From: Parvularculales bacterium
GTDB lineage: Bacteria > Pseudomonadota > Alphaproteobacteria > JAPOUT01 > JBAJNM01
Assembly: GCA_036881865.1 (NCBI GenBank)
Contig: JBAJNM010000006.1
Location: 1-64,000 of the forward strand
DNA: 64,000 nt
Direction: 5' to 3'
Made by a program: the position numbers and the translations under genes. The notes under the pieces are model-generated. The model saw only the letters and a list, made by a program, of their open reading frames with translations, was not told where the DNA came from and ran no database searches. This document shows positions 3,478 through 18,220 of this stretch, one piece after another. The number at the start of each line of letters is the position of its first letter. The stretch's first letter is position 1.

Positions 3478-4794
3478 CTATCGGGTCAGGGTTTCGGGTA
3501 GCCAGGTAATCGTCTCGGGCCAGATTAAGAAGACGGTTACCGTCAGGATGTCAGCGACTACAAAGGGGAGTACACCACGGAAAACGGTTGATATGGGAAT
3601 GTCTTTGCGTATACCTGCAACAACAAAGCAGTTTAATCCAATGGGTGGTGTTACCAAACAGACTTCTGCCATTTTGACGACCACAATACCAAACCAGATG
3701 GGGTCGTATCCAAGGGCTATAACAGCGGGATAAACCACGGGAAGGGTGAGCAAAAGCATGCCGATGGCATCCATAAACATGCCTAATATGACATAGCTCG
3801 CTAGGATACAGATCATAATAACCACAGGTGGGTAGGGCAGAGAAACGACCCATTCGGTAAATTGTGCAGGAATCTCTGTAAATCCTAAAAAACGCACAAA
3901 AATAAGGATGCCCCAGATGAGGGCGAATATCATAGCGGTTAGTTTGGCGCTTTCCAGCATGGCATTTTGGAAACTGTGCGCTGATGTTTTGTTGATAAGA
4001 GCTATGAGAAAGACGATGGCAGCGCCTAGGGCACCGGCCTCGGTGGGTGTTGCCCAGCCCAGATAAATGGAGGAAAAAATGATGACAACTACCGTAAGAG
4101 TAGGCAGAGCACCCGGTAGAGCACGGAAGCGTTCACGCCATGTAACGTTTGGGATTTTGGGGGCAATGGTAGGATACCATCGCACCCAAAGGAGAATGAT
4201 AATTACATAAATGAGTGCCGAAATAAGACCGGGAATAAATCCGGCTAACAAAAGTTTGCCAACGGATTGTTCTACAACGATAGCGTAAATGACGAGGATA
4301 GCACTTGGAGGAATAAGGCTCGCTAGAGTTCCCCCGGCGGCGACAACACCGGCAGCTAGTTGTTTTGAATAACCTGCATTCAGCATTTCAGGGATGGCAG
4401 CACGACTGAAGACGGCGGCCGTTGCGGTAGAGGCACCCGATACGGCGGCAAATCCCGCCGTTGCAAAAACGGAAGCGATAGCCAACCCGCCTGGTAGCCA
4501 ACCAAACCATTTACGGGTGGCATCAAAAAGTTTGGCTGTAATACCTGCATGAAAGGCTAAGTAGCCGATGAGAATGAACATGGGCAGGACTGACAGACTG
4601 TAGGTTACCGACTTTGAATGGGGGATGGTACCGGCAAGTCCTGCCCCTGCATCCCATCCGAGGATAATGATAAGTCCACACAAACCAACAAAACTGGCAG
4701 CGATATAAATCCGAACTCCCAGTAGAACGCAAACGATGAGACAGCCAACACCAATTAAGCCGATAAGGTTATTATCAATCTCCACGGGGGTCAT
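3478..4794 (-). CDS. dctM: TRAP transporter large permease (DctM)
   Basis: This is the large, roughly 12-helix membrane subunit of a tripartite ATP-independent periplasmic transporter, which drives solute uptake with the sodium or proton gradient. The family pattern is seen in the hydrophobic blocks and in motifs such as PMFILIGYLAFHAGI, ASLIPPSAILVIYAIVVEQS and GLNCFVVAGI near the end. I place the start at 4794 (MTPVEIDNN), which aligns with the usual N-terminus and has GAGAT upstream. ATGs at 4806 and 4833 are alternatives. The gene overlaps the dctQ stop by 20 bases, so translation is probably coupled. Confidence 0.92.
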   Translation of the reverse strand: MTPVEIDNNLIGLIGVGCLIVCVLLGVRIYIAASFVGLCGLIIILGWDAGAGLAGTIPHSKSVTYSLSVLPMFILIGYLAFHAGITAKLFDATRKWFGWLPGGLAIASVFATAGFAAVSGASTATAAVFSRAAIPEMLNAGYSKQLAAGVVAAGGTLASLIPPSAILVIYAIVVEQSVGKLLLAGFIPGLISALIYVIIILLWVRWYPTIAPKIPNVTWRERFRALPGALPTLTVVVIIFSSIYLGWATPTEAGALGAAIVFLIALINKTSAHSFQNAMLESAKLTAMIFALIWGILIFVRFLGFTEIPAQFTEWVVSLPYPPVVIMICILASYVILGMFMDAIGMLLLTLPVVYPAVIALGYDPIWFGIVVVKMAEVCLVTPPIGLNCFVVAGIRKDIPISTVFRGVLPFVVADILTVTVFLIWPETITWLPETLTR

Positions 4795-5401
4795 AGATCT
4801 CGTCATTGGGGTTTTGGGTTTTATGCATGCCACTAAGGTTCTGCAAAGAGAGGTAGAATGGTTCAGGAGCGGGTCGTATCAGCAGGCCTATAAACCCGAT
4901 CGTCATTACAAGAAGCCGCGCCCATAAAAGGGATAGTGAGATGGGGACTACAAGTTTAGAGGGCCACCAGAGATATCTGGCGTCGATGGTGACATCACCG
5001 CTTGTATAGGCACGGAGGGCATGGTCGAATCCGTAGCGGATTAAAGTAGCAATAACAAACAAGCCAATGAGTGCTCCAATGAGTTGCATCGCATAAAGCC
5101 AGCGCCCACGAAGGCGGTTGACAAGCAACGTCATACGCACGTGATCTCCGGCTCGTTCCGCATAAGAAATCGCAAAAAAAGCGAAGGGTGCCATTAGCAG
5201 TTCCACAATATCAATGTAACCAAAAATGGGAGTGTTAAAGACCTGCCGCCCCACGATTTGAGTAATGCCGATGGACATTAACAAAAAGATGCCGATGGCA
5301 GCAGCCATGGCAAATAAACGTTCAATTTTACGAACGATAGTATCTGTGCCAATATGAGCCTTAAGGAGCCTACTGCTGGCATCATTATATGAGAGGGGCA
5401 T
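4775..5401 (-). CDS. dctQ: TRAP transporter small permease (DctQ)
   Basis: This 208-residue protein is the four-helix small membrane subunit of the TRAP transporter. Hydrophobic segments fall near residues 30-52, 65-82, 98-120 and 155-180. A pattern common in DctQ proteins, FAFFAISYAERAGDHVRM (about residues 73-90), sits after the second helix. It is the middle gene of dctP-dctQ-dctM, with a 56-base gap from dctP and a short overlap with dctM. It acts in the inner membrane with DctM and takes no part in substrate choice. Confidence 0.9.
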   Translation of the reverse strand: MPLSYNDASSRLLKAHIGTDTIVRKIERLFAMAAAIGIFLLMSIGITQIVGRQVFNTPIFGYIDIVELLMAPFAFFAISYAERAGDHVRMTLLVNRLRGRWLYAMQLIGALIGLFVIATLIRYGFDHALRAYTSGDVTIDARYLWWPSKLVVPISLSLLWARLLVMTIGFIGLLIRPAPEPFYLSLQNLSGMHKTQNPNDEIYDPRGD

Positions 5402-5457
5402 GGCGTGTCAGATAATTATAAAAGTATTGATACAGAGAAACTGCTAGGGGGATCTGG

Positions 5458-6516
5458 CTAGTTTCCTTCTTCGGCGGTGGCGAGGAGATCGTTTAGCAAA
5501 CTACGGGCATCAAAAAAGCTATTGTTTTCAATAACCCATTCTTCCCAGATGGGTTGTCCGGCAATATCTCTAAACTGTGCAATTTGCGCGTCGGTATAGA
5601 CGATGCCGGTTAGGTCCTTTTCAAAAAGAGGTAAATTTTTTGCGTCTACATTCTTGTAAGTAGCGCGTTGAATGGTATAAGCCTCTCGTTTGAGGTCGTT
5701 TAGTAAGGCCTGATATTGCGGAGGAAGGGCTTCATAAGAGTCTTTGTTAAAGACAACAGCGCACTCTGCGGTGCCGGGGCTGAGATTGACCGTATACCAA
5801 TCACTTACTTCGTTTACGTTGAAAGACTTGAAACCATAAGTGAAGGGCAGAGACGCTGCATCAATAGTTCCTCTCTCAATAGATGTATATATTTCCGGTG
5901 ATGGAATAGTGGTTGGGGTAGCGCCCAGTTTTTTCATAGCTTCTCCAATGCCGCCACCTGCCCGTACGCGAAGGCCTTTCCACTCTTCAAGAGAGAGAGG
6001 TGGTGCGCCACGACCCATAAACTGATAGGTTGGCAGTAGCGAGGAGATATAGGGAATGGCGTTCCAGCGTTCCATATCAGCGAGAAATGCCGGATGATCA
6101 AGTAACATCTCTCGGACTCTTTGCGAGATATCGGGGTTATCAATAGGAAGAAAGGGAAGGGTGAGGATCATCCATGCGGGGTTTTTTCCCGGGTGATAGA
6201 AGTTGCAGAAAAATGCTCCCTGAAGAGCGCCAAGGCTGATACCATCAAGATTTTCGCGGGACTTAGAGAGAGCCTCACCATAATGAATTTTAATGCGGAA
6301 CTTATTATCGGTGCGTTTGGCTATTTGTTCGGCAACATGTTCCATACCGGCGCTCATGGCGCGTTTCTTGCCCCAGAAGGAGATATTCCAGTCAACGACT
6401 GGGCCTTGCACTGTCTGTGACCATACGGATGAAGAGTAACAGGTTACTGTGGCAAAAAAAATAACAGTCAAAACTGAAATACAACAACGATAAAGATCGC
6501 GGGGGATGGCATACAT
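5458..6516 (-). CDS. dctP: TRAP transporter substrate-binding protein (DctP)
   Basis: This 352-residue periplasmic binding protein delivers solute to DctQM. A signal peptide spans about residues 1-34, ending near SSVWSQ. The DctP signature around GLRVRAGGGIGEAMKKLGA (181-199) contains the arginine that normally binds a substrate carboxylate, so an organic acid is the likely ligand; that is inference. It is the first gene of the operon. No Shine-Dalgarno is obvious before the ATG at 6516. The 678-base region upstream should carry the operon promoter. Confidence 0.92.
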   Translation of the reverse strand: MYAIPRDLYRCCISVLTVIFFATVTCYSSSVWSQTVQGPVVDWNISFWGKKRAMSAGMEHVAEQIAKRTDNKFRIKIHYGEALSKSRENLDGISLGALQGAFFCNFYHPGKNPAWMILTLPFLPIDNPDISQRVREMLLDHPAFLADMERWNAIPYISSLLPTYQFMGRGAPPLSLEEWKGLRVRAGGGIGEAMKKLGATPTTIPSPEIYTSIERGTIDAASLPFTYGFKSFNVNEVSDWYTVNLSPGTAECAVVFNKDSYEALPPQYQALLNDLKREAYTIQRATYKNVDAKNLPLFEKDLTGIVYTDAQIAQFRDIAGQPIWEEWVIENNSFFDARSLLNDLLATAEEGN

Positions 6517-6821
6517 TTTAAAATCTTCTTTTTTGGTGATTAAGTGGCCGAGGGAAGAGGATTCAGGCTACACTAGAGTGGCGTATCCAATCGGGACAAT
6601 GATACTTAGGATATTCTGGAGACGATTGCAGGCAACGAGGCTAGCAGGCTCCGGTTGGAGATTGGTCATAATCGTCTGAATCGATCCAACAGGGTGGTAG
6701 CTCTCATAGGGTTTTCACGGCGCATGCTCTGCTGCTCTCAAAACTTGGCAAGAGAGTAACTGGGGATGGAGGAAAAAGTGTAGATTTATTATGTTGCCAA
6801 TAAAATTTCCGAAACTCCTAC

Positions 6822-6983
6822 TTACCCAAATGACTGTCTGGGTTCGTTATCCTCAATGTAACATTTATCCAAACTGCAAGGATAAAAATCCTCAGCATCA
6901 GCAAGGGTAACTGTAAAAACTACTGGTCTGGAAAAAGCGAATACCATCACAGTAGCAATTGAAACTGTTCTTAGAATCCCCAT
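6822..6983 (-). CDS. Hypothetical small secreted peptide with two cysteines
   Basis: The frame encodes about 53 residues starting MGILRTVSIATVMVFAF, with a basic n-region, a hydrophobic core and a plausible cleavage after LADA. That leaves a mature acidic peptide of roughly 23 residues with two cysteines (CSLDKC). AAGGGG stands about 8 bases before the ATG at 6983; an upstream ATG at 7010 would add nine residues. I recognise no family. It stands alone between dctP and lnt. Chance is a real alternative for an ORF this short. Confidence 0.35.
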   Translation of the reverse strand: MGILRTVSIATVMVFAFSRPVVFTVTLADAEDFYPCSLDKCYIEDNEPRQSFG

Positions 6984-7063
6984 TTTAGACCCCTTATTAG
7001 GTAGTGCCAAGCCAGCCCATTGCCATAATATTTTACTTTTTTACTTCTACAATGGCAAGCACA

Positions 7064-14694: not shown

Positions 14695-15123
14695 ATGGGT
14701 TCAAAAGAAGATATTAGAATTAATAAGAGTTTTATTGAAACCGAAGTTGGAGCAGGGGTATGGTACCTCAATAAATCCACAAAATTTGTGTGGACTGGAA
14801 AAATATCAAAAGAAGCTTTTTTTGGATTACAAAAAGATTTAAAAGCTAAATTATCTGAAGAACATTTTTACCCAAGAAAGATATCAGCGATAGAAGCTCT
14901 TCAAACTGATTGGAATCGTTTTGATAATCCTATAGATGAATTTATCGATCGTTATTTGAATAAATATGGAAGATTTCATTATGTAACAAAAGAAGAAAAT
15001 AAAAGAGTTTCTATCCATCAGAGAGTAGAAAATTTTATAAGGCCTGAAGTAGCTTATCAAAAAGCTGGTATAAAATTAATTGATTGGACAATAGCTAAAG
15101 AAGAAATATTTGATACCACTTAA
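14695..15123 (+). CDS. AT-rich ORF of unknown function, probably 5'-disrupted
   Basis: The frame encodes 142 residues, MGSKEDIRINKSF to AKEEIFDTT, rich in Lys, Glu, Ile and Phe. I recognise no family. A second protein-like frame at 14555-14842 (RKKLVPKATALLDLVKGMQ) overlaps it in another phase, so a longer gene may have been broken by a frameshift. Both frames are strikingly AT-rich compared with guaA and the other flanking genes. The ORF ends 16 bases before the end of an insertion sequence, which suggests recent arrival. No ribosome-binding site is clear. Confidence 0.45.
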   Translation: MGSKEDIRINKSFIETEVGAGVWYLNKSTKFVWTGKISKEAFFGLQKDLKAKLSEEHFYPRKISAIEALQTDWNRFDNPIDEFIDRYLNKYGRFHYVTKEENKRVSIHQRVENFIRPEVAYQKAGIKLIDWTIAKEEIFDTT

Positions 15124-15240
15124 CCACAGAAGAATTATTGATCTGCCCCCATCAATCGGTCCAGTTTGAAAGGTAATTTATTGGCGGTCTGCAGTGCTAC
15201 CCTTCTTTGGACCACCGGAGATTAGGATTTCCGGTTTCTA

Positions 15241-16093
15241 TCAGGGTGACGCGCCGGATGCGTCACCTGATACCACGAGTGTGATCGGGGGTTTGTTACC
15301 AATCGCACTATGGGGTGGTTCTTCATTATAGTACTTACGCCATTCCTCTACCTTTTGGCAAGCGTCTTCAAGCGATAAGAACCAATGTGTGTTCAAACAC
15401 TCGCTCCTGAACCTGGAGTTGAAGGCTTCAATATAGGCATTATCCGTCGGCTTTCCGGGACGCGAGAAGTCAAGGACCACATCATTCTGATAGGCCCGGA
15501 GATCAAGATCCCTTGAGATGAATTCGCTGCCGTTATCAACACGGATCGTCTTAGGGTAACCCACCTTCCGGCAGGTCTCATCAAGCGTTCTGACCACGTC
15601 CTCACCCTTGTATCTATAGCGCGGGTCAATCACAGGCGAGAACCGGGAGAAAGTATCCACAACGGTCAGTATGCGTAGCTTACGGCCTGTGGCCAGTTGA
15701 TCATGGACAAAGTCCATCGCTCAGGACCTGGTTGGTATGGGTCGGGTCGGCGCGGTCTTCACGAAGCTTCGCCTTAACACGACGTTTGGGTGTTTTATTC
15801 CTTAATTGAAGCCCCATCTCATTATAAAGCCTGTGTACCTTCTTCACATTCACCTTCCAGCCTTCCTGACGGAGAACACAGTGTACCCGCCGGTAACCGT
15901 AGCGAACCCGGATCTCACAGATCTCCTTGATGCGTTTTTTGAGCGAGGCCGGGTCAGCTCTACGGGATACATAGTGATGGGTTGAGCGGCAGAACCGGAA
16001 GACACGGCACGCACGACGTGCCGACACCTGCCAGTCGCTACATACATCCCTGACGATAGCCCGTCGCTGAGCCGGCCCTAGAACTTTCGTTTG
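15241..16093 (-). pseudogene. IS3-family transposase OrfB of ISa, disrupted
   Basis: OrfB carries the DDE integrase core. The N-terminal part (QTKVLGPAQRRAIVRDVCSD onward) is read by a -1 shift from orfA and ends at NQVLSDGLCP. The remainder starts in a different frame at MDFVHDQLATGRKLRILTVVD and keeps the second Asp (RVDNGSEFIS) and Glu (NAYIEAFNSRFR). Near 15715-15725 an extra base shifts the frame, and in the restored frame the usual Trp codon is a stop (V-stop-AMDFV). The enzyme is therefore unlikely to be made. The usual OrfAB fusion would depend on this frame. Confidence 0.8.
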
Positions 16094-16344
16094 ACGACAT
16101 CCTGAAGCATTTCACGGTCAAGCGTCAGATCGGCAACAATCTTCTTCAGTTTGCTGTTTTCCTCCTCCAGCGCACGAAGCCGCTTCATTTCCGAGGGCAT
16201 CAGACCGGCGTATTTCTTCTTCCAGTTGTAGTAGGTGGCCTCCGAAATCCCTGCCTTGCGGCAAAGCTCCGCAACCGGCACGCCCAGTTCGCCCTGTTTG
16301 ATGAGGAACGCCTTCTGGGCGTCCGTAAATCGAGATCCTTTCAT
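16078..16344 (-). CDS. IS3-family transposase OrfA of ISa
   Basis: This 88-residue protein has a helix-turn-helix (about residues 20-42, VAELCRKAGISEATYYNWKK) that binds the element ends, followed by a leucine-zipper-like helix (MKRLRALEEENSKLKKIVADL). The motifs match OrfA of the IS407-type branch. Near the end the AAAG in AAACGAAAG allows a -1 shift into orfB (QTKVLGPAQRR), as in other IS3-family elements. orfA itself looks intact, while orfB is broken. Confidence 0.85.
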   Translation of the reverse strand: MKGSRFTDAQKAFLIKQGELGVPVAELCRKAGISEATYYNWKKKYAGLMPSEMKRLRALEEENSKLKKIVADLTLDREMLQDVVKRKF

Positions 16345-16402
16345 CGGTCTTCCTTCTCCTTCCGGCTAGGAAAATAACCCGAAAACTCTATTCTCTTATG
16401 GT

Positions 16403-17245
16403 CTAAATTATAGGGAGCAGAGCAGGTCTTGGGTCAATCGGGATGATAGTTTCCGGCACCGGCGGCCTGTATCCAAGTGCCGAATGCGGTCGTCTGGTAT
16501 TGTAGTGGACACGCCATTGCTCAATCAGAATCTGCGCTTCCTTGAGTGTGTAGAATATCTCCCCGTTTAACAACTCGTCTCGGAAGCGTCCGTTGAAGCT
16601 TTCTATATAGCCGTTCTCCCATGGTGACCCCGGCTCGATATAGGCGGTTTGTGCACCCACGGCCGCTATCCACTTTCTGACACTAGCTGAGATGAACTCA
16701 GGACCGTTATCGGAGCGGATGTACCGGGGAACACCGCGTAGAATGAACAGATCCGTTAAGGCATCAATCACATCAAACGGGTTGATCTTACGCCGGACGC
16801 GAATCATCAAGACCTCACGGGAGTATTCATCCATGATGTTCAGTGTCCGGAAAGCCCTTCCGTCATCAGTGCGGTGATGTACAAAATCGTAAGACCAGAC
16901 ATGATTGGGATATTCAGGCCTGAGCCTGACGCAGGAACCGTCATTGAACCATAGCCTTCCCTTCTTTGGCTGTTTTTGCGGTACTTTCAACCCTTCCCGT
17001 CTCCAGAGCCGCTCAACGCGCTTGTCATTCACAGACCAGCCCGCTTCGCGCAGCTTTACGGCAATGCGCCGGTAACCATAGCGACCATATTCGCGGGTAA
17101 GCGCTATTATATCTGCCACAAGGCGCTCTTCATCAGCACGGCCTTGTGGAACACGGCGTTGTGTTGATCGATACTGCCTGAGCACCTTGCAGGCGCGGCG
17201 CTCTGATATGCCAAACTTCTCCCAGGCAGCTCGCTGTTTGTAGAT
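16403..17245 (-). pseudogene. IS3-family transposase OrfB of ISb, 5'-truncated
   Basis: The frame encodes an integrase-core transposase: helix region AWEKFGISERRACKVLRQYR, then HVWSYDFVHHRTDDG with the first Asp, RSDNGPEFIS with the second, and NGYIESFNGRFRDEL with the Glu. Upstream of about 17245 similarity to the family ends and there is no orfA, so expression signals are gone. At the 3' end the reading frame runs into the terminal repeat of ISa and stops there (TAG at 16405-16403), so the last residues are not native. An internal ATG at 17185 would give 260 residues. Confidence 0.8.
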
Positions 17246-17259
17246 GTTATAGGTATACC

Positions 17260-17433
17260 ATGCTGGAGATGGAGGATAGATGTTTGGGGTGCAACGGCGA
17301 ACTGGCCTTGACCTATGAGGCTTATATTTGTTCTTACGAATGCACGTGGTGAAGGTCCTGTGTTGAAATTATGGTATTTGTGTGCAAACACTGAGGTAGG
17401 AATCTGCGAAAAAGGCCCTCCCGGAAGCAATAG
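17260..17433 (+). pseudogene. DUF1272 small zinc-ribbon-like protein with two in-frame UGA codons
   Basis: Starting MLEMEDRCLGCNGELAL, the frame gives 57 codons ending KRPSRKQ before TAG, the full length of a DUF1272 protein. It keeps AYICSYECT in the middle and a basic tail. Two codons are TGA: codon 31, where the family has the last Cys of ECTFC, and codon 45, where it has the second Cys of CPNC. All other positions are open and family-like. Decay after IS insertion is the plain reading, since the truncated IS ends 10-15 bases before the ATG and leaves no room for a native promoter. Recoding of UGA is the alternative. Confidence 0.7.
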
Positions 17434-17509
17434 ATAGTAGTATATGTTGGGCAAGATATAATTTGTTATAGTAGTGCTCAGGGGCTAATTTGGTAGAGGC
17501 AGGTGTAAG

Positions 17510-18220
17510 ATGAAATTACCCGTTGGGGAAGTTTTGAGGGAAACCTACGAAGGGGTATTCCTCCATGCAAGAGTTATGGTGGGCCTGATTTGGTATGCTC
17601 TTTTAGCTTATTTTGTGTTGATAGCACTGGAGGAGGTTTATCCGGATTATGGAATTAGCATTCTGACATGGCTGATTTTACCCATGATTTCTGTTCCTTT
17701 GCATCGGTATATTATTGAAGGGGAGCGCAATGCTGGCTGGCATGGCCGCTATCTGTGGTATCTTTTAGCAACGATAGTTTCGTCTTTGCCGGGAATTTTT
17801 CTCATTATAGGTGCAGCGTTTAGTCTACCTTTCCTTGGTGATGCTATAACCTTTGTCGGTGCGGGTGTGTTTCTGCTCTTTTGTTGGGCTACATTTTATG
17901 TTCTCGTGCGGTTAAGCTTGTTGTTACCTCTTACGGCAGTTCGGGGAGGTATCTTTATTAAAGATGCCTGGCAAATTGCTGAGGGAAATTGCTGGAGGTT
18001 ATTCCTTGCTATTGTGGGAGCGACTCTTCCCATACCGCTGATCTCTTTACTTATAGCTGCGCCTGTATATGCTTTCTTAAGCACTGCGGGAGGTGAAGGT
18101 ATTCTTCTTCTTCTGTTTCTTGTCGTTCTTTATATGGTAAATTTCCTGTTTGTTACGTTATTGAGTATTGCTGTCTTAGCCGTTAGTTATCGCCGTCTCG
18201 CGAAGCGCTCTGGGGCATAA
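17510..18220 (+). CDS. Multi-pass membrane protein of unknown function
   Basis: This 236-residue protein has about six hydrophobic segments (roughly residues 22-42, 48-66, 82-104, 110-140, 160-190 and 200-225), separated by short basic loops such as [17 protein letters not shown]. The start METs well with a family-like amphipathic N-terminus ([19 protein letters not shown]). I cannot name the family with confidence; it resembles the loosely defined inner-membrane proteins often listed as hypothetical in alphaproteobacteria. It precedes panB in the same direction with a 31-base gap and may be cotranscribed. Confidence 0.7.

Follow-up and report, generated by a model that had tools for sequence, protein, structure and literature searches.

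Bacterial pseudogenes of duplicated genes that lie beside IS elements are an ordinary and already known kind. The locus described here, a 57-codon DUF1272 (PF06906) frame interrupted by two TGA codons, resembles them in being a redundant copy with an intact paralog, in its premature stops and faster evolution, and in having a truncated IS directly upstream. It departs from them in nothing of note; both of its stops are TGA and sit on Cys codons. Another comparison is with the bacterial selenoproteins that form Sec/Cys pairs: a TGA aligned with a conserved Cys is the usual pattern of such pairs in selenoprotein searches (PMC1088965), and the two TGA codons of our locus do align with conserved Cys. 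Unlike those selenoproteins, the locus comes with no Sec machinery that we could find, no SECIS-like fold and no conserved TGA in relatives. We are nearly certain that the frame is a recently decayed pseudogene, derived from the redundant second copy of a small gene of zinc-ribbon-like type.

The DUF1272 frame and its homologs

The window, by which we mean the whole 64-kb stretch of DNA analysed, comes from a metagenome-assembled genome (MAG; 2.33 Mb, 89 contigs, 98.7% complete, 3.0% contamination). Translation of the frame at 17260-17433 (+) gives three segments, MLEMEDRCLGCNGELALTYEAYICSYECTW, RSCVEIMVFVCKH and GRNLRKRPSRKQ, each followed by a stop codon (Table 1). When TGA was read as Cys, the Pfam DUF1272 profile (PF06906) matched residues 1-55 of the frame over profile positions 1-57 of 57 (8.9e-16, 58.2 bits), and in a six-frame search of the genome with the same profile the frame, with its 2 TGA, scored 47.6 bits; the score lies above the gathering cut-off of 25.3 bits with both ways of reading TGA. 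Like other members of the family, the frame spans the whole profile with its start and end aligned, and 6 of the 8 conserved Cys are present. Unlike them, it lacks a complete eight-Cys set (six Cys codons, all retained, plus two TGA) and has other residues in place of the near-invariant N44 and G47. There are no frameshifts. A sequence-only reading of this DNA had described the DUF1272 frame as full-length and its two TGA codons (31 and 45) as lying at conserved Cys positions, and both parts of that description are borne out by the profile match and by the homologs.

Table 1. Coordinates of the features in the window.
Feature	Position	Strand	Description
DUF1272 frame, almost certainly a pseudogene	17260..17433	+	57-codon frame, two premature TGA, terminal TAG at 17431-17433
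Premature TGA, codon 31	17350..17352	+	paralog TGC; Cys in 101/101 homologs
Premature TGA, codon 45	17392..17394	+	paralog TGC; Cys in 101/101 homologs
Codons 44-47, H-TGA-G-R	17389..17400	+	N44H and G47R at 92% and 98% conserved positions
IS3-family element, truncated	16403..17223	-	orfB-like transposase (Pfam rve_3, rve, HTH_21); orfA end missing
Second IS3-family element, transposase in pieces	15241..16344	-	orfA 16078-16344; orfB fragments 15701-16027, 15241-15717; Pfam HTH_Tnp_1, rve

The homolog set comprised sequences from the same class, from the same order and from GTDB genomes (n = 101). In the alignment, the positions of codons 31 and 45 are invariably Cys (Table 1), so the relatives, whose comparison the earlier reading had asked for, have ordinary Cys codons at both places; H44 and R47 of the window copy are seen in 0 of the 101. 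Among ~98 class-level DUF1272 matches no other copy has an in-frame TGA; TAA and TAG occur in one copy each. A Brevibacillus sequence (L101) considered as another case of TGA at Cys was rejected: the translated frame holds a frameshift, and the case is an artefact of it. Searching a plasmid collection with the region returned no match. In the literature searched, DUF1272 came up in one paper, whose title and abstract say nothing of its function.

The intact paralog and the IS3-family elements upstream

A second DUF1272 frame is present in the same assembly at C33:10438-10602 (-). It reads MLEMKDGCLKCGGELSLTSEAYICSYECTWCRPCAETMSFVCKNCGGDLQKRPSRKQ, scored 74 bits, is free of stops and has ordinary Cys codons. 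The window copy is 81% identical to this paralog at the DNA level over 178 bp with no gaps, and the homology covers 17259-17436 only, i.e., the gene plus a few bases around it. An intact DUF1272 copy elsewhere in the genome was, together with an absence of sel genes, what the sequence-only reading had named beforehand as evidence against its idea that UGA is decoded in the window copy. Contig C33 carries IS remnants and dispersed repeats that are common to the window contig, C32 and C37. Since these repeats are common to other contigs of the bin and none occurs on contig C89, we take C33 as native and rejected the notion that it is foreign. By comparison, C89 (L179; 1-10232) is GC-rich, carries a second prfB together with mrcA-like and rne-like genes, and has no repeats in common with the other contigs sampled; it is probably a contaminant from another alphaproteobacterium. 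Which of the two DUF1272 loci is older is not settled by synteny, as glyA adjoins the paralog on C33 but not the same-order homolog L019. Also on C33 (L021), at 3722-7021, is a 1099-aa frame with many degenerate Cys-containing repeats (CPEDW-like).

Upstream of the window copy, 15241-17223 is occupied by two adjacent IS3-family elements on the minus strand, both of them defective. The identity of the truncated element to a copy on contig C7 breaks off at 17223, a point 36 bp short of the DUF1272 ATG, and the C7 copy runs on into an orfA-like region. Because the identity stops here while the C7 copy continues, it was a rearrangement that brought the truncated IS to this position. A search of 17150-17520 gave no sigma-70-like promoter. 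A short dispersed repeat at 15121-15210, with copies on C33, C32, C54 and several other contigs, may be REP-like or an IS-associated end.

Decoding of UGA and the competing explanations

If selenocysteine were inserted at both UGA codons, the product would be a selenoprotein form of DUF1272, and the alignment of both TGAs with invariant cysteines is what the usual Sec/Cys pattern (PMC1088965) would lead one to expect. The genome, however, gave no selA, selB, selD or tRNA-Sec over cut-off: the best selA match (13 bits) was a SufS frame, the selB matches were sub-threshold GTPases led by CysN/CysC, with no EF-Tu-sized frame among them, selD yielded sub-threshold matches only, with ThiL as the best, and the selC search returned nothing over the gathering score, its sub-threshold matches being canonical tRNAs (ARAGORN). 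A SECIS-like fold was likewise absent from the 51-61 nt following either TGA, where the predicted folds were less stable than those of shuffled sequences (z +0.8 to +1.6). A sel-gene search and a SECIS search were among the checks suggested along with the UGA-decoding idea, and the outcome of each speaks against it. That sel genes are missing from a gapped, 98.7% complete MAG is strong evidence and not proof, because bacterial tRNA-Gly and tRNA-Tyr were also not found in the assembly, nor was an EF-Tu-sized frame among the selB matches. Selenocysteine insertion is further opposed by the lack of any other TGA-bearing DUF1272 among the ~98 class-level matches, by the loss of conserved non-Cys positions in the same copy, and by the DUF1272 cysteines themselves, which look like structural metal ligands and not like a redox site. 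Taken together, we regard it as extremely unlikely. A broader version, in which recoded UGA, whether it gives selenocysteine or is read through, stands for two of the zinc-ligand Cys of a DUF1272 paralog and the recoding genes fell into the assembly gaps, seems to us scarcely credible. Were UGA in fact decoded as Sec here, the protein would be an unusual selenoprotein, one in which Sec serves as a structural metal ligand.

As for read-through of UGA, whether through a suppressor tRNA or through code reassignment, the bin does contain a tRNA with a UCA anticodon that might have served. This tRNA, the only one of its kind in the bin, lies on contig C34 (L020:6728-6799) and was labelled tRNA-SeC (tca) by ARAGORN. 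However, C34 (1-19573, 19.6 kb) carries cox1, cob, atp9, nad genes and 24 tRNAs, and its long frames are open only with UGA read as Trp; it is a mitochondrial genome present as contamination, and its UCA tRNA is the mitochondrial tRNA-Trp. We therefore rejected it as a suppressor or Sec tRNA, and caution that the mitochondrion of a host can be the source of a UCA tRNA found in a MAG. The contig is probably from an animal host, which we take to be possibly a sponge from its atp9 gene content and from all genes lying on one strand. On the bacterial contigs none of the tRNAs has a UCA anticodon (all 61 tRNA matches in the genome surveyed with ARAGORN), and the bacterial tRNA-Trp has the anticodon CCA. 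The RF2 gene prfB gave two matches over cut-off, of which at least one (C37) is on a native contig and the other on C89. Outside the window, TGA terminates 60 of the 159 long frames sampled, and within it 12 of 35; this is about as many as end in TAA, in agreement with the earlier remark that UGA acts as an ordinary stop elsewhere in the window. Moreover, Trp at both positions would be expected to break the zinc sites. Read-through thus has next to no probability in our estimation. UGA is a stop here, and if the frame is translated at all, the product would be 30 residues long. In a window that stems from a MAG with some contamination, one could suspect that the gene is intact and that the TGAs were introduced by sequencing or assembly. 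Such errors would have to account for two separate substitutions, in a copy that is also derived at further conserved sites (G47R, N44H), and we consider this explanation very unlikely.

Probably recent decay of the window copy

Polarising the changes with the same-order homolog L019 placed 9 derived amino-acid changes (two stops included) on the window branch vs 1 on the paralog branch, a small sample in which the window-branch changes include N44H and G47R. Thus, the window copy combines relaxed constraint, with conserved positions hit, and premature stops within a frame whose counterpart, the C33 paralog, is intact. The pairwise dN/dS between the window copy and the paralog is 0.25, at dS ~0.6. 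Given this ratio, the lack of frameshifts and the six Cys codons that were kept, the window copy probably kept its function through most of the period that followed the duplication, and its decay is probably recent.

A sequence of events consistent with these observations would begin with a gene duplication that left the intact DUF1272 copy on C33 and a redundant one in the window. A rearrangement brought the truncated IS3-family element to its observed place 36 bp upstream of the start codon, and the IS junction probably removed the promoter. With selection relaxed, the copy then acquired amino-acid substitutions where the family is conserved, and two of its Cys codons mutated to TGA. Of the two possibilities raised by the sequence-only reading, coincidence in a gene silenced beside an IS is supported by the intact paralog and the decay, whereas decoding of UGA at this place is not supported.

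The intact paralog has 32 single-base routes to a stop codon; 12 of these lead to TGA, and 8 of the 12 start from its eight Cys codons. With transition/transversion weights from 1 to 4 for the route probabilities, the probability that both fall on Cys codons is 0.22-0.53 given two TGAs, and 0.03-0.07 given two premature stops of any kind, for a feature that was picked from a 64-kb window. The earlier view that both stops falling on Cys is notable is therefore weakly borne out. The coincidence is mild, even before allowing for the selection of the feature from the window, and both TGAs lie on Cys codons because, in an eight-Cys protein, these codons are where most single-base changes that yield TGA can start. 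In short Cys-rich proteins, where most TGA routes start at Cys codons, such coincidences of TGA with Cys are to be expected.
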